A DNA stretch of 36,392 nt from a bacterium (GTDB lineage Bacteria > SZUA-182 > DTGQ01). Each line of letters begins with the position of its first letter. Position 1 is the stretch's first letter. The stretch covers positions 1-36,392 of the forward strand of contig JBFLZW010000009.1 of the NCBI GenBank assembly GCA_040755755.1, in the 5' to 3' direction. Under the pieces are notes generated by a model that made no database searches, was not told the DNA's origin, and saw only the letters and a program-made list of their open reading frames with translations. Made by a program: the position numbers and the translations under genes. This document shows positions 4,346-35,922 of this stretch, piece after piece.

Positions 4346-7300
4346 CAGACTCTCCCCCGCAGCTTCTGCACCACCGCCGGATCATCCAGACTGTTGACGA
4401 CCTGTGATTTTATCACCTGGCCATCGACCACGACATTAATGGTAATTTGTGCCGACTCTTTCAGGTCAAGCAGCATCGGCGCGACCGCCCTTCCCACCTC
4501 CTGACCGATAGCCGCAGCGCTCATCTGCTCTCCCTTCTCTCTGGCCACCCAGGGAATGCCCAGGATATCCTGCCGCACTCCGGCCACCACACCGGCATAG
4601 TCGGCGCTGGCTGCCTGATAGAATGGCAGCAGGGTGCCGGTGATGAACGATGACAGGGGATTGAATTCCTGTGGATTGCCAATCGCCCCGGCCAATAACT
4701 GCTGATAGGCGCTCTGCAATCCAGCCACGCTCTGCACCGGAGCCAGGGGGCCGGTATCGAGACTCATCAACAGACTGTTCACCGGCCCAAGAATTGCGCT
4801 GGTATTAGTTTGTATGGCTGTAGTATTCAGGCCAAGGGCATTGGCTACTGATTTAAGTGATTGATCAAAAGTTTCAAATATTGGTTTGAGTGTCTCCAGA
4901 ATCGTACCAAGTTGTCCGCCAGCATCAATAAAGGCAGAAGTTACAGTGTCAAGTGTTGTGCCGCCATCACCCTTAATATACTGATCAAGTAATCCAAATG
5001 CACCAACAAAGCCGGTTGAACTCATCATAATTTGATCAATAACTTGGTTGGTAAATCCTTGCGCTAGCCCAGCTTTCACCTTCTCATACATGAACCTTTC
5101 CAGGCTATCACCAAATCCCTGAAAGCCGCTCGTATCAATGCTTTCGAGGAAAGCATTACCGATTCCCTGAGCTATATTCTCCTGGATTTCGTAGAACTTG
5201 GCTGAAATCTGATCAAAATAAGCCGTCCACATTTGAGCATCTTCCGCACTAATGAATGAGCTGACAGGCCTGATATAGCCATATTCATGAGGGATATCAG
5301 GACCACCATCCCATCCTGGTTCATAATAGGTATTGGATTTCACCCCAACCTGAGAGGATAGCCATTGATTTAAAATAGCCGCCCTTTTTTGCGGGTCTTT
5401 TTCCGCTTCTGGACCAAAGAGAACATTCCACATTTCTTGAGGAAAAGTACCGTAAACATTAGGTAAAATATGAGGGAATGGGCCATGCATGGCCATATTA
5501 CTGAGGTTCTGCAGATTGATATCACCAAATGTAATATTCCATAACCATTCAAAAGCATCCTTGACTCCTGGCACTAATTTTGAGATATCGAAATAGGAAG
5601 CAATCATATTTTGAAGGTTATTTATATTCGTGCCTCGCTGAATATCAAAAGCTGTTTTCCCATGTAAATGAATAGGAATATTTGCCGCAGTGCTATCGGT
5701 TAACAAAGCTATCCGATGATAAAAATCAATCTGTTTTTGAAGAGTAATCTCAATAGTGTTAAGTAACTCCTGATTTTTAGGGGTATCTTTCCATTTCTGA
5801 CCTATACGCTTAATTTGTCCGTCAATCACCTCATATAATAAATCAATAGATGGATGTTTTTCATTATAATTTTTAGACCATTCACCAAATAATCCACCCC
5901 CAACAGCACCAATTATAGTTCCCCATCCAGGTTTAATGAGGGTCCCAATTATAGCTCCCTGTATTGCACCTTTTTCAGCATTCAGTTGACCTGATTTATG
6001 CTGTTGATAAAGATCATACCCCATCATCCCCATACCCAAATAAGATCCCCAATTTGAACCTGAGTTTGCAGTAGAATTACCTGACCCCAGAGTAAGATTA
6101 AAAGAACTCAGCCCACCAGACAACTGTTTGCTATTCATGTAATTCATAGCGGCATCGATGCCTTTTTTGATATTATCACCAATCACTTTATCCAGTACCA
6201 TCTTCAGGAAGTAATCCTTAATATCCTGGAAAAATCGCTTGAATGCATCACGCCCACCGTTTAGGCTGTCGATGATCGCATCAGATAAGCCGCTACTGAT
6301 ATGGCCTATGGTTTGATCCCACTGCCGCTGGATTTCCTCCTGCTTCTGCTTGGCAAGTTTTATAGCTTTGTTATATTTATCAATATCGATCTCTGCTAGA
6401 GCATTGGCTTCTTTTAGCAGTTCATCGGCTGTTTTTTCTGATGAAATTTGGAGATCAGTATTGAATTTTGATAATTTTTTATCTGTTTCTTGGAGATTGG
6501 TTTTAAAGGTTGACATTCCAGCGTGGAGGTCCTTAAATGCGCCATTACCTCCCTGCATGGTTTTATTTAGCGCATCGAGCTCAAGATTGAAAGCCTTAGT
6601 CAGCTCTGGAATATCGCCTAGGAGTTTTCGATATTCGGCATATTTTTCATTGAGCTTTTTGACTGCATAATCATGCTCGCTAAGGGTAAGGCTATCAATG
6701 GTATCCTGGAGTTCCTTTAGTGCATTGATAACATCTTTAGATGTTTCCTTGGTGGTATCAAATTTTTCTTTTTCGAGTACTCCGCTTGCCCCCCGGAGCT
6801 TGTAAACCTCTTCATCGATGACAATGCCAGACCTTCGCAAGCTTTCAGTCTGGCCTTCCATGGCTTTCCCTAAAGCTAAGGCTGCACTGCGCACATCACC
6901 TTCCATCACCGCCGCCAGGTCAACCATCACCCTGGTCGCCATCGGTATCTGATCATTGCCGATGGAGTCAAACATCATCAGCATCTTCTGGCCGCGCTCG
7001 ATTTGATCGTCTTCGATCCCGGTCAGCTTCTGCAAAGATTCGGCCTGCTTCAGGGTGTTTTGGTAGAACTCATCGGAATACCGATTATTAGCCACCATAG
7101 CTGCCTTGAGCGATCGATCGGCCTGATCCTGAGCAGCCGCAAGCTTCACCCATCCCTCGATCATCTGCTCCAGTTTCCAGACTCCCAAAGCTGCACCGAC
7201 CCCCATAATGGCATCCTTCAGGGAGAAAAGCGTATTGCCGGCGTCACTGAGCGCTCCCTGGAGGGTATGCATTTTCCCCCTGGTTTCTTCCACTCTCTGG

Positions 7301-10198: not shown

Positions 10199-10274
10199 TC
10201 TCCCGCAGAGACGCAGAGACGCAAAGAAAAAAAGACAAATTATTTTCTCTGCGCCTTTGCGTCTCTGCGGGAGA
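10199..10274. repeat. Palindromic repeat, GCAGAGACGC family, copy 1
   Basis: Arms TCTCCCGCAGAGACGC and GCGTCTCTGCGGGAGA flank an AT-rich centre and would form a long hairpin. It lies exactly in the gap between the gpG-like and gp36-like genes. The copy at 10790-10864 is the same element in inverted orientation, including its AT-rich centre and outer AATATT bases. Confidence 0.9.
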
Positions 10275-22162: not shown

Positions 22163-22435
22163 CTAGTAATCGTAAGGTTCCTGCATCAGCTCCTCGATGC
22201 CGTCTATAATGGCCCCGGCGATAATCATCATCGGCACCTCCCGGCATTGCAGCGGGCTGACACTGGCCAGGTCAAGAGCATCCTTGAGCCCGGCCAGGGC
22301 CAGGTGGAAATTGACGAACGCCTGCTGGAGACTGGCATGCGCCAGCTCCGCATTGGCGGATAACATTTCGCCATTGGTGGCGCTCAGCGGGTGAGCACAC
22401 TTGGCTGATTTTATCTTGCGGGCTGTCTTATTCAT
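22163..22435 (-). CDS. Hypothetical protein
   Basis: 90 aa from the ATG at 22435 with AGGAGG 9 nt upstream, overlapping the end of the BRO-type antirepressor by 8 nt. It begins MNKTARKIKSAKCAHPLSAT, then is helical and Ala/Leu-rich (AELAHASLQQAFVNFHLALA), ending acidic (ELMQEPYDY). No family was recognised. Its coupling to the antirepressor places it in the same transcript. Confidence 0.55.
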   Translation of the reverse strand: MNKTARKIKSAKCAHPLSATNGEMLSANAELAHASLQQAFVNFHLALAGLKDALDLASVSPLQCREVPMMIIAGAIIDGIEELMQEPYDY

Positions 22436-23267
22436 GGTGTTTGGCCTCCTTCGGTGTTCCAGGGGTATAACTTTTGGTAGACACTCTTTCTTCTGCTTCC
22501 CTTTGCTTTTGCAATACCAGCCTGTTATAGCGACACAAGGCAGCGGCGGAGATTTTCTCGTTGAATTTCTCCATAATGGCTTCTGACACCTTTTCATACG
22601 CCATCCCCTGCTTGAGCAAGCTTATCGCCTCAGCTTTGGCATTCTCGGAAAGCTCATCGACCTTGAACCCACACCGGCCAGGAACCCTTTGCCCTTTAGG
22701 GAGATCATCATCCGGTGATGATGCCGTGCTCCTGATCTTAATCTTGGAAGTGCTTTTGGAAAAGGCAATCTCAACTTCAAACCCGGAATACTGCATAACT
22801 TCCCTGACAACCTCAATAGCTGTCTTCTCCGGATCAGGATTGAACGGCGTTGTTGCTCCTGGCATGGTATAGCTTCCGGTTTTGCGGAGTGAAGGGAGGA
22901 CTTCGGATGTTACCCATTTCCGGAATGGTTTAGCTTCCGGTTTGTTCGAGCGAAGGATAAGCGTGTAAAGACCAGATTCGTTAATGACCAGCATTTCCTG
23001 GGTGCCGCCAAGGGTGTAACTTTTGGTTATACCCTTTTCGTCATCATCTAATCCTTGGAGTGCCTTGCTCGTGTTGGACATTTCCAACACCTCACATACA
23101 TCCTTAGCCACCCACCAGGGAAGTCCATGCTCATCGATTGTTGTCCTTATTGCATGCTCTCCATAGTTGAAAAGCATTAACTGAAAGTTTTCCTTGCCGG
23201 GGGGATTGGATGAAGAGGAAGGTTGATCGTGCCCATCACTGGGCGGAATGCTTTGCTGCGTAGACAT
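22428..23267 (-). CDS. BRO-N antirepressor with C-terminal small-terminase-like HTH
   Basis: 279 aa, ATG at 23267 behind the very strong SD AAGGAGGTG. Residues 1-12 (MSTQQSIPPSDG) are identical to the start of the upstream antirepressor because both come from the duplicated leader cassette. Residues 27-130 form a BRO-N domain (NYGEHAIRTTIDEHGLPWWV, AKDVCEVLEMSNTSKAL, NESGLYTLILRSNKPEAKPF, FRKWVTSEVLPSLRKTG). Residues 190-250 (KGQRVPGRCGFKVDELSENA, AAALCRYNRL) match the N-terminal HTH of the DUF3486 gene at 19136-19852. BRO-type proteins usually counteract phage repressors. The leader with its own promoter suggests antisense control of translation. Confidence 0.85.
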   Translation of the reverse strand: MSTQQSIPPSDGHDQPSSSSNPPGKENFQLMLFNYGEHAIRTTIDEHGLPWWVAKDVCEVLEMSNTSKALQGLDDDEKGITKSYTLGGTQEMLVINESGLYTLILRSNKPEAKPFRKWVTSEVLPSLRKTGSYTMPGATTPFNPDPEKTAIEVVREVMQYSGFEVEIAFSKSTSKIKIRSTASSPDDDLPKGQRVPGRCGFKVDELSENAKAEAISLLKQGMAYEKVSEAIMEKFNEKISAAALCRYNRLVLQKQREAEERVSTKSYTPGTPKEAKHHE

Positions 23268-23279
23268 AGCTACACCTCC

Positions 23280-24059
23280 TTACAGTTGCGAGAATGCCCG
23301 CCAAAAGAGAAAGCCTGAGTGTTTGTCACGACCCTGTAAGGTGGCCGCCCCGGACCTCACGATCACGGGACACTCAGGCTTAATTTTTAGCGAATCACTC
23401 TCAATGCTTTGACAAAAAAAATAGCCTAAATCCGAGGCCAGCGGCCTTACAGTTTTCCCCGAAGCTATCGCTTCGAGGCATTTGACAATATCAATTATAC
23501 TTCTTTGGCAAGATATTATCAAATAAAAATTTCCGGCTATTTTTGAGGAAGGGGATTGCTCGGATGCTATTCCGAGCTTCAATAACAGGGCTTCCAGCTC
23601 CGGAGAAATTTTTCCTTCTTCGGCATCCTTATGCATCCGCTTGAAGGAGAAATACATCCTCACCAGATCACGCTGCACCTTCCAGGAAATATCATCGGTG
23701 AATGGCTTTACTACCATCAGGTAGCCAGACTCGGTGAGAAAGATCATTGATCTATGTTGATCTCTTGAGTCCTGTGTTTGCTGGTAGTTTGAGATGTCCG
23801 TTTGGTGGACATCTAAAATTGGCTTCCATTCCTCATAAGGGAGATCGAAATAATCCTCCCCTTCGATGAATCTGCTCTTATGCCGGTAGAATGTTTTCCT
23901 GGCGGTTCCATCGACTCTTTGATGCAGATCATCCACCATGCGGAAGGTAACAACCGGATGATCCTGATAGGTGATAAGCTGGACATCCTTATCCATGATA
24001 TGGATGGTGGCAGGAAGGTTTTGCCCATCACTGGGCGGAATGCTTTGCTGCGTAGACAT
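23280..24059 (-). CDS. ORF6N-type antirepressor with leader-derived C-terminus
   Basis: 259 aa from the ATG at 24059 with GGAGGTG upstream. Residues 1-12 are the cassette-encoded MSTQQSIPPSDG. Residues about 28-75 match an ORF6N-type domain (YQDHPVVTFRMVDDLHQRVD, GTARKTFYRHKSRFIEGEDY). A second conserved part follows (MIFLTESGYLMVVKPFTDDI). From about residue 172 the frame runs through leader copy 1 (IAGNFYLIISCQRSIIDIVK) and stops at a TAA that overlaps the SD of the next gene. The original C-terminus was probably replaced when the cassette inserted. Translating this gene would open the leader-1 hairpins, coupling the two antirepressors. Likely function: inactivating the repressor. Confidence 0.75.
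   Translation of the reverse strand: MSTQQSIPPSDGQNLPATIHIMDKDVQLITYQDHPVVTFRMVDDLHQRVDGTARKTFYRHKSRFIEGEDYFDLPYEEWKPILDVHQTDISNYQQTQDSRDQHRSMIFLTESGYLMVVKPFTDDISWKVQRDLVRMYFSFKRMHKDAEEGKISPELEALLLKLGIASEQSPSSKIAGNFYLIISCQRSIIDIVKCLEAIASGKTVRPLASDLGYFFCQSIESDSLKIKPECPVIVRSGAATLQGRDKHSGFLFWRAFSQL
23311..23381 (-). ncRNA. Candidate C4-like antisense RNA, unit 1
   Basis: A 71-nt hairpin closed by 11 bp, carrying in its loop CCTTACAG, fully complementary to CTGTAAGG at the antirepressor SD. C4 RNA of P1 is of similar size and is processed from the leader of the same transcript. If processed, this RNA would block translation of the BRO antirepressor. Confidence 0.6.
23494..23522 (-). promoter_or_regulatory. 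Sigma70 promoter of leader copy 1
   Basis: TTGATA (23522-23517) and TATAAT (23499-23494) with a 17-bp spacer; start expected near 23487, about 220 nt before the ATG. The arms TTTGATAATATC and GATATTGTCAAA, one mismatch apart from perfect inversion, flank the -10 and could be an operator. Confidence 0.7.
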
Positions 24060-24102
24060 ACCTACACCTCCGTTGGTTAGTGAGAATGCCCGCCAAAAGA
24101 GA

Positions 24103-24175
24103 AAGCCTGAGTGTTTGTCACGACCACCAACGGACGGGCCGCCCCTAATCTCACGATGTCGGGACACTCAGGCTT
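24103..24175 (-). ncRNA. Candidate C4-like antisense RNA, unit 2
   Basis: A 73-nt hairpin with the same closing stem as unit 1 but presenting CCGTTGGT, complementary to ACCAACGG at the SD of the ORF6N antirepressor. The loop word of one unit does not pair with the target of the other, so the two should act independently. Confidence 0.6.
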
Positions 24176-24290
24176 GTTTTTTAGCGAATCAATCTCAATA
24201 TTGCTTTGACAAAAAAAATAGCCGAAATCCGCGGCCACGGCCGTTGGTATTTTCCCCGAAGCTTTCGCTTCGAGGCATTTGACAATATCA

Positions 24291-24319
24291 ATTATACTTC
24301 TTTGGCAAGATATTATCAA
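24291..24319 (-). promoter_or_regulatory. Sigma70 promoter of leader copy 2
   Basis: TTGATA (24319-24314), 17-bp spacer, TATAAT (24296-24291); start expected near 24284. The promoter region is identical to that of copy 1, including the TTTGATAATATC / GATATTGTCAAA inverted arms. Confidence 0.7.
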
Positions 24320-24372
24320 ATAAAAATTTCCGGCTATTTTTCTTGTCGCCATGACTGCCATTTTCTTTTTTC

Positions 24373-24495: not shown

Positions 24496-25722
24496 TCACA
24501 CCGCCACCCTGCTCAGCGGCACTGCCCTGTATCGTGGATTCGTCAGCCCCTGATACCATTCATCGATCGTGACGCACTGGATCCTGCGGGCTGCGATGTA
24601 GTCGATCAGCGCCCGAAAGTCGGCGATTGCCCAGGTGTTGGCCCCGGCTGCCGCCTCCAAGGAGTGGCCGTGGAAAACAACAGTAGACTGCTGGGTGATC
24701 GCGTTATCCACCAGAGTCTTGGCTGCCGCCAAAGTCGTCCCGCTGTCGAGGGCCTTACTGTTGAGCAGCTTCAGGTTATCCACCGGCGCGTATTGGAGTG
24801 AGCTTCTCGTTGTCCGTCCCGTCAGAATGCCGCAGGCATCCATCGCCGCCAAAACATCGGCATTATACACTCCCCCTGGATAGGCCAGATAATACGCTGC
24901 CCTGGTATATCCCTGGGCAATCAGCCAGTCGGTACACTGCTGTATCTCGTCCTCGATCTGGGCCTGGGATAGCCCGGTCAGATAATCCGGAGCGCCCGGA
25001 TGGGTGTAGGTATGGTTTGCCAGAGCCCACCCGGCATCGTACAGTTCATCCACCTGAGCCAGGGTCATATAGCCGTCTGTCCCAACCAGGGCAGGGACCG
25101 TGTACAGTGTCCCCGGCACTCCTCTGGCGGACATATAGGAAAACCCTTCGCTATAGGCTGATGTCCGCCCATCGTCGAACGCGATAATACACCTGGGAAG
25201 CTGCTCGGTTGAGTGCCTGAACTCATCAATTGAGATGCTGGCTGTCTGGCCTGTTTTAGCCACAAGTTTGATATACATCCTGATTATGGCATTCCAGGTT
25301 TCCCCATTCACTACTGTCCACCGGCTTCTTGGTATGACAAGGTGTGTCCAGCCCTCGTCGAGCAAATCAGCGCCACTGAGAGATAAGTTCATGCTTTTGC
25401 TCAGATCTGAGGTCGAGGTAAGCTGTATTAACACCTCGTTTACCGTAGTTGATGGCACGGAATGGGAATAAAACCATATATGCATCGCTTTACTCGCCGC
25501 CCGCAGATCCACTGCCGCAGGTAAAATTTTCCTGGCCATGATCCACGATCCCGGCGTGGTCACGCTTAATTTGAGCGACTGGCTGCCAGTCCGATACTGA
25601 CTGGTATTGGCCGCTATCGTTCCATCCGTGCCGATCGTGGTGAAATCGCCGACAGCCTCAAAATCCTCAAAGAGAATGCCATTGCTCACCATATAATTTT
25701 GTGGTAACGATGATCGCGACAT
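24496..25722 (-). CDS. Polysaccharide deacetylase-like (NodB) protein
   Basis: 408 aa. The N-terminal half (about 1-170) is a beta-sandwich-like domain (ILFEDFEAVGDFTTIGTDGT, TGSQSLKLSVTTPGSW, GWTHLVIPRSRW) that may bind carbohydrate. The C-terminal half has NodB motifs: IAFDDGRTSAY (catalytic/metal Asp pair), ALANHTYTHPG (His pair), YLAYPGGVYN, and TVVFHGHSLE near the end. There is no signal peptide. Such enzymes remove acetyl groups from surface glycans. As a phage protein it could be virion-borne and modify capsule or peptidoglycan. It is odd that it lies between replication genes and antirepressors rather than in the tail operon; it may be a cargo pair with the next gene upstream. Confidence 0.8.
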   Translation of the reverse strand: MSRSSLPQNYMVSNGILFEDFEAVGDFTTIGTDGTIAANTSQYRTGSQSLKLSVTTPGSWIMARKILPAAVDLRAASKAMHIWFYSHSVPSTTVNEVLIQLTSTSDLSKSMNLSLSGADLLDEGWTHLVIPRSRWTVVNGETWNAIIRMYIKLVAKTGQTASISIDEFRHSTEQLPRCIIAFDDGRTSAYSEGFSYMSARGVPGTLYTVPALVGTDGYMTLAQVDELYDAGWALANHTYTHPGAPDYLTGLSQAQIEDEIQQCTDWLIAQGYTRAAYYLAYPGGVYNADVLAAMDACGILTGRTTRSSLQYAPVDNLKLLNSKALDSGTTLAAAKTLVDNAITQQSTVVFHGHSLEAAAGANTWAIADFRALIDYIAARRIQCVTIDEWYQGLTNPRYRAVPLSRVAV

Positions 25723-35444: not shown

Positions 35445-35472
35445 CCTATAATAATATATCACTATAGAGATA

Positions 35473-35922
35473 ATGTCAACTGATAAAACCCAAAATAGCG
35501 ATAACAATTCATTTAACACCCGGCTGGTAAAACTGCTGTCTGCCTGTAAATTGTCCCAGCTATCGCTTGCAAAAGCAATAGGTATATCTCAATCAATTAT
35601 CTCTGAATGGATCAGCGGGAAAAAAAATCCTCGACTACCAGCTCTTGAATCTATCGCAAAAGAGACAGGGGCTAACCTGAACTGGCTAATCCTTGGGGAA
35701 GGCCCCATGTTTCGTGAAGGTGCAGGTATAGAAAAAACTATCCCTACCGAAAATTTACCCAAAGAACAATTTAAACGCTGGTTAGACGAATTCTGGTTAG
35801 AAGCTGATCCAGATCAAAGAACCTGGCTCAAGGTCGAGTTGAGGGAAAAAATCCCCAAGTTTGCTGATTGGCTAAAAAAAATGGACGAACGCCAGGAAGG
35901 AGGCAGTCGTCAAGTGGGGTAA
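35473..35922 (+). CDS. CI-like phage repressor (XRE HTH)
   Basis: 149 aa, the main plus-strand gene at the phage left end. Residues 13-70 form an XRE HTH (FNTRLVKLLSACKLSQLSLA, KAIGISQSIISEWISGKKNP), followed by the common LESIAKETGANLNWLILGEG PMF junction. The C-terminal part (KEQFKRWLDEFWLEADPDQR) is helical and lacks an S24 peptidase Ser/Lys pair, so it is not a LexA-type self-cleaving repressor. That fits induction through antirepressors rather than RecA. It is transcribed divergently from the Ner-like gene with a 5' leader of about 14 nt. Confidence 0.88.
   Translation: MSTDKTQNSDNNSFNTRLVKLLSACKLSQLSLAKAIGISQSIISEWISGKKNPRLPALESIAKETGANLNWLILGEGPMFREGAGIEKTIPTENLPKEQFKRWLDEFWLEADPDQRTWLKVELREKIPKFADWLKKMDERQEGGSRQVG

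Follow-up and report, generated by a model that had tools for sequence, protein, structure and literature searches.

Two tandem C4/IsrK-like leaders, each with its own pairing word, precede presumed antirepressor genes in a Mu-like phage

Why would a single phage carry, in tandem, two nearly identical leaders that differ in concert at three short places, each ahead of a different gene? The DNA that raises this question, hereafter the window, is the whole 36,392-bp contig G000:C9, in which a domain search recognized a Mu-type transposase (Mu-transpos_C), a TniB/AAA-type ATPase and a CI-like repressor; these matches bear out the claim of an earlier note on this DNA that the phage is Mu-like. Its minus strand holds two leaders of ~280 nt each, which were the sole matches in a search of the host genome, and two downstream genes whose products are presumed, from their domain families only, to be antirepressors:

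24341-24060, minus strand: leader 2, 5′ of the ORF6N gene (ATG at 24059)
23280..24059, minus strand: gene for an ORF6N-domain protein of 259 aa (PF10543, E 5.5e-13)
23544-23268, minus strand: leader 1, 5′ of the Bro-N gene (ATG at 23267)
22428..23267, minus strand: gene for a Bro-N-domain protein of 279 aa (PF02498, E 8.6e-27)

The likeness of the two copies extends beyond the leaders, as the first 12 codons (MSTQQSIPPSDG) are common to both genes (22428-24059). The duplicated unit is therefore the leader plus the N-terminus, grafted onto two unrelated domains. Just upstream of the cassettes, the phage also encodes a polysaccharide deacetylase domain protein (24496-25722, minus strand).

The difference between the copies is concentrated in three words, which we call a1, a′ and a2:

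23452-23445, minus strand: copy 1 a1, CTGTAAGG
23341-23334, minus strand: copy 1 a′, CCTTACAG, in the loop of an inner hairpin
23285-23278, minus strand: copy 1 a2, CTGTAAGG, abutting the Shine-Dalgarno (SD) sequence GGAGGTG
24248-24241, minus strand: copy 2 a1, ACCAACGG
24133-24126, minus strand: copy 2 a′, CCGTTGGT, in the loop of an inner hairpin
24077-24070, minus strand: copy 2 a2, ACCAACGG, abutting the SD GGAGGTG

As the earlier note had described, all of these words are present, and they match exactly within each copy while differing between the copies. Outside the words the copies are ~90% alike, whereas the word columns, which make up 25 of the 283 alignment columns, hold 15 of the 36 columns that differ (hypergeometric P 2.7e-9). 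Each a2 ends against a GGAGG SD, which it overlaps by its last two G. A detector that looks for a word, its complement in a hairpin loop and the same word adjoining an SD and an open reading frame returned, with 8-nt words and 9-bp arms, exactly the two cassette sites in the window; in dinucleotide-shuffled windows, any match at all occurred in 11 of 1,884 at the looser setting of 7-nt words and 8-bp arms.

The words are embedded in a leader whose elements follow the same order in both copies, namely a promoter with operator-like arms, a hairpin H1, a1, a terminator-like hairpin t1, a C4-like RNA, a2 at the SD, and the gene:

24319-24291, minus strand: copy 2 predicted sigma-70 promoter TTGATA-17-TATAAT (region 24278..24320)
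24320-24309 and 24289-24278, minus strand: copy 2 inverted operator-like arms TTTGATAATATC and GATATTGTCAAA, flanking the promoter
24253..24275, minus strand: copy 2 hairpin H1, 9 bp with a GAAA loop (fold -15.9 kcal/mol, z -4.5)
24211..24238, minus strand: copy 2 intrinsic-terminator-like hairpin t1 with T8
24103..24175, minus strand: copy 2 C4-like RNA, with a 12-bp outer stem, a GNRA hairpin, a 6-bp a′ hairpin and the linker GACAA
23522-23494, minus strand: copy 1 predicted promoter TTGATA-17-TATAAT with the same operator-like arms (region 23481..23523)
23456..23478, minus strand: copy 1 hairpin H1, 9 bp with a GAUA loop (from the fold)
23414..23440, minus strand: copy 1 intrinsic-terminator-like hairpin t1 with T8
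23311..23381, minus strand: copy 1 C4-like RNA (from fold and covariation)

At the closing pair of t1, copy 1 has U-A where copy 2 has G-C, a compensatory change. In the C4-like domain (fold z-scores of -4.8 and -3.5 for the two copies), the 12-bp outer stem encloses a GUGA-loop hairpin and a 6-bp hairpin that carries a′ in its loop. The middle word had previously been placed in the loop of a hairpin with an 11-bp stem: it does lie in a hairpin loop, but the outer stem has 12 bp, and a′ sits not directly in its loop but in that of the inner 6-bp hairpin of a three-way structure. For the second (linker) word, the window holds a distant upstream TTGTCA and no target near a2. A GCCCGUC-GGCGGGC pairing that we considered as the second word of copy 2 was dropped, as it is absent from copy 1 and stands in the wrong order. 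We also observed an open frame across each whole leader (minus strand, 23280-23544 and 24077-24361) that stops at or just before a2. In leader 1 this region is traversed by the ORF6N frame, whose TAA lies inside the a2 of copy 1, where it could couple translation of the first gene to that of the second. An open frame across the leader and its C4-like domain was present in 9 of 12 homologues, compared to ~2.5 for the summed shuffled fractions, a count among related sequences that serves as a lead only.

Whether the pairing is selected can be judged from homologues. A protein search with the Bro-N product against IMG/VR yielded 80 loci, of which a single one (L005) has the leader; leader and gene thus shuffle independently. 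Covariance-model and pattern scans added two further leaders (L113 and L110) and one from Desulfovibrionales (L164), and a search of the class to which L164 belongs (297 genomes) yielded another six, for a total of ten further homologues, drawn from Desulfovibrionia genomes and viral contigs. The genes downstream in homologues encode Rha and P22_AR_N proteins, and in L110 a small ORF precedes the antirepressor-like gene. The viral contig of L113 additionally carries two type II hammerhead ribozymes (4687-4751 and 10207-10272). Phage and plasmid nucleotide searches gave no leader match, and no other cases were found in the host's family (4 genomes) and phylum (9 genomes), both thinly sampled. 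Six of the seven contigs from a first viral pattern scan proved not to be cassettes, being mostly chance matches, and L089, which scored 34.4 bits in the model, was excluded as a coding region without the words.

Over 12 sequences, 92.6% of the stem cells were paired, where rows aligned with the covariance model are biased towards structure and slid controls reached 42-49%. Double changes occurred in 19 of 26 pairs, amounting to 71 double-change cells as compared to 20 in shuffles. The loop words were nearly all different among homologues, and yet each of the ten matched its own SD region over 6-9 nt (sum of 87, versus a permuted mean of 49 and maximum of 71; permutation P 5e-5). The same held for the upstream region (sum of 90, versus a permuted mean of 58 and maximum of 78; P 5e-5), with L194 as a weak case of 5 nt. 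The linker word behaved alike, with pairs such as TGAC/GTCA, TTAGG/CCTAA, TAGACA/TGTCTA and AGAC/GTCT, and with targets at both places in the ten homologues (SD-side permutation P 7e-4). Covariation of words and of stems together supports the earlier proposal that RNA pairing is under selection, and the near family, checked for homologues whose words do not covary, does covary. More distant Desulfobacterota members (L196-L207) keep a1 and a′ and have no a2 at the SD; blocking of the SD therefore cannot be the sole function of the wider family. In several of these a T tract follows directly after the C4-like stem, with the look of an intrinsic terminator, and their RNA may work through attenuation or have its target at another place.

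To the earlier note, two such specificities in tandem in a Mu-like phage appeared new. Two different words in tandem are indeed present, but the arrangement is not unique. Using the Rfam C4 model (RF01695), we found C4 in 23 of 369 genomes of the gammaproteobacterial class, three of which hold tandem cassettes within 3 kb on one strand (four in G952, and two each in G923 and G1058). As in the window, these are near-identical tandem cassettes with private words, although, in contrast to those of the window, they are recognized by Rfam C4. The four cassettes of G952 differ mainly in the linker word (AGTTCGAA, AAGGTCAA, ACTGCTAA and AATGCGAA, with matching targets) and mostly share the loop word, while in G923 both words differ between the copies, and the genes are Rha and P22_AR_N. 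The tandem private-word pattern thus recurs in another C4 lineage, with two antirepressor families at one locus. The G952 array packs its four Rfam-type cassettes into 1.4 kb (L238, contig 9, 1496-3150), with open frames that traverse the cassettes and stop shortly after the following start codon. A further genome, G965, has ten Rfam C4 loci on ten contigs (L241-L250) with nearly all words different, as if it held many co-resident prophages. We found no description of tandem private-word C4 cassettes in the open-access papers searched, most c4 work being published in subscription journals. The window is chiefly of interest as an antisense specificity split in tandem, and less as a unique object.

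What, then, do the two leaders do? Very probably, they are two tandem C4/IsrK-type antisense-RNA switches, each of which would control the translation of its own presumed antirepressor. The words, structures, homologue covariation, promoter- and terminator-like signals and gene families can be read directly from the sequence, and from these we infer transcripts, their termination and processing, repression and derepression, and the functional independence of the copies. The promoter would probably be kept shut by a phage repressor. Upon firing, it would yield a short RNA that ends at t1 and carries a1, while some read-through RNA would carry the C4-like domain and the gene. In the latter, the a′ loop would pair with a2 at the SD and block translation, a block that would be relieved by competition for a′, either from the short a1 RNA or from a1 on the same molecule. 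As for the repressor, the window offers a candidate:

35473..35922, plus strand: gene for a CI-like repressor, a candidate to regulate both promoters

Control of both promoters by this protein is plausible because an operator-like GAGATAATGTCAA (35467-35479) overlaps the start of its gene. Beside this gene, near the contig end (36020-36210), lie a long run of A and recurring inverted repeats of the AAAATCGGCCAACTTTTT type.

Because the words differ between the copies, each switch would mainly recognize its own gene. The calculated loop-to-SD duplexes have energies of -11.5 and -16.5 kcal/mol for the cognate pairs, as compared to -5.8 kcal/mol for copy 1 on copy 2 and -10.4 kcal/mol for copy 2 on copy 1, the last of these located 5′ of the SD rather than on it. 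When the strands were lengthened slightly, copy 1 reached -11.4 kcal/mol on the copy 2 leader, which suggests that the isolation of the two switches may be incomplete, with some one-way cross-talk.

Much of the same evidence can be read in other ways. All three words lie on one leader, and a purely cis switch, in which a1 and a2 of a single transcript vie for its a′ and neither a separate C4 nor a short RNA acts in trans, would explain the covariation equally well by intramolecular pairing; the alternative a1-a′ and a′-a2 pairings are both strong, and the model for IsrK (PMC4825925) includes base-pairing inside the long transcript. Nevertheless, a terminator-like hairpin with a T tract parts a1 from the rest and predicts a free a1 RNA, and the c4 RNA of P1 acts in trans (PMC8546580), so we deem an exclusively cis mechanism unlikely. 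The T tracts after the C4-like stem, which occur in the Desulfobacterota members without a2 and also in several closer homologues, point instead to attenuation as by the CI RNA of P4, where a′-a1 pairing would govern termination, whether at t1 or at the C4-like stem, with a2 pairing being secondary; the P4 order of seqA, CI RNA and seqC (PMC4825925) fits this as well. Yet the window and the ten closest homologues conserve a2 at the SD, where it changes in step with a′, and the tract after the C4-like stem in the window is only TCTCTTTT, which makes attenuation quite improbable as the main mode of action here.

It is also conceivable that the locus was duplicated in tandem only recently, that the word differences are functionally meaningless and that the copies still cross-react. 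The shared first 12 codons, the ~90% likeness outside the words and the -11.4 kcal/mol duplex of copy 1 in the copy 2 leader would all fit. We give this reading little credence, as the differences are significantly enriched in the word columns, exact three-way complementarity is kept in each copy, and the same pattern appears in unrelated tandem C4 arrays. We thus favor two C4/IsrK-type switches, each addressing its own gene.

What this arrangement may mean in general can be put forward only tentatively. Possibly, cassettes of the C4-like kind, from two or more RNA families left unconnected by the covariance models used here, multiply in tandem within one phage while changing all of their pairing words together. 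A single phage would then hold at least two induction switches that can be addressed separately, with an antirepressor and an RNA password for each. If so, which antirepressor is triggered could depend on the superinfecting relative or the signal. The origin of C4 RNA specificities has so far been hard to see, and copies in tandem that are distinguished chiefly by their words provide a natural experiment, in which one antisense specificity splits into two inside one genome. Beyond this, Desulfovibrionia genomes and viral contigs harbor a C4-like family that Rfam does not cover, and the data suggest that two or more antirepressors of a single phage can each be placed under RNA control of their own.

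C4 RNA, a processed RNA of ~77 nt that acts in trans, sets the heteroimmunity of phages P1 and P7, and the earlier note had likened the cassettes to it. The a1/a′/a2 logic and the three-way shape uphold the likeness, but membership of the Rfam family does not follow: RF01695, with which P1 scores 68.8, gave no match to the window at the gathering threshold (45 bits needed) or at E up to 10, and none to the homologues either. Rfam PrrF, trpB, VrrA and mir matches at the leaders fell far below their cut-offs and were taken as chance. We therefore treat the cassettes as a distinct, GNRA-capped, C4-like family. As the covariance model built here in turn matched neither P1 nor ~30 Rfam-C4 loci, shared ancestry with Rfam C4 is only a possibility. 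The annotated order in P1 is operator, promoters, a1, b1, C4, a2, b2, icd and ant, with a stem and then TATTTTT between b1 and C4. The window resembles P1 and P7 (RF01695; c4-a1b1, RF03163) in its succession of operator and promoter, targets, terminator-like hairpin, C4, SD targets and gene, and P1 in the linker-then-loop order of targets. As in Rfam C4, the loop word is complementary to an upstream and an SD-overlapping target, and the fold of both copies and the 12-sequence covariation show an outer stem that encloses a tetraloop hairpin, a word-bearing hairpin loop and a linker word. The presumed antirepressor context is likewise shared (Bro-N and ORF6N here, Rha and P22_AR_N in homologues). 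The equation of the loop word with the a series of P1 had to be revised, as it corresponds to b1/b′/b2, and the position of P1 a′ is taken by the linker (TGACA-type) word. Unlike P1 and P7, the copies have a GNRA instead of a UUCG tetraloop and an extra CCC-GGG extension on hairpin 1, and the window has neither a second-word target near the SD nor an icd-like ORF to separate the leader from the antirepressor gene.

The terminator-like hairpin that follows a1 escaped the earlier note, and it adds a likeness to IsrK to that with C4. In the Salmonella prophage Gifsy-1, terminator read-through transcripts are translationally inactive, and short IsrK activates them in trans (PMC4825925). The IsrK/orf45-anrP system shares with the predicted arrangement here a terminator-ended short RNA, a complementary read-through mRNA and an antirepressor downstream, and terminator-like hairpins with T8 lie between a1 and the complementary region in both copies. 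Rfam isrK, by contrast, scored only 13.7 bits on copy 2. IsrK acts on orf45, which is translationally coupled to anrP, whereas here the word stands directly at the antirepressor SD and the antirepressor-like ORF starts directly after a2, with no coupled small ORF in between. The CI RNA of P4, likened here by order and from its description, shares the succession of target, antisense RNA and target (seqA/CI RNA/seqC; PMC4825925), but acts by transcription termination of replication genes.
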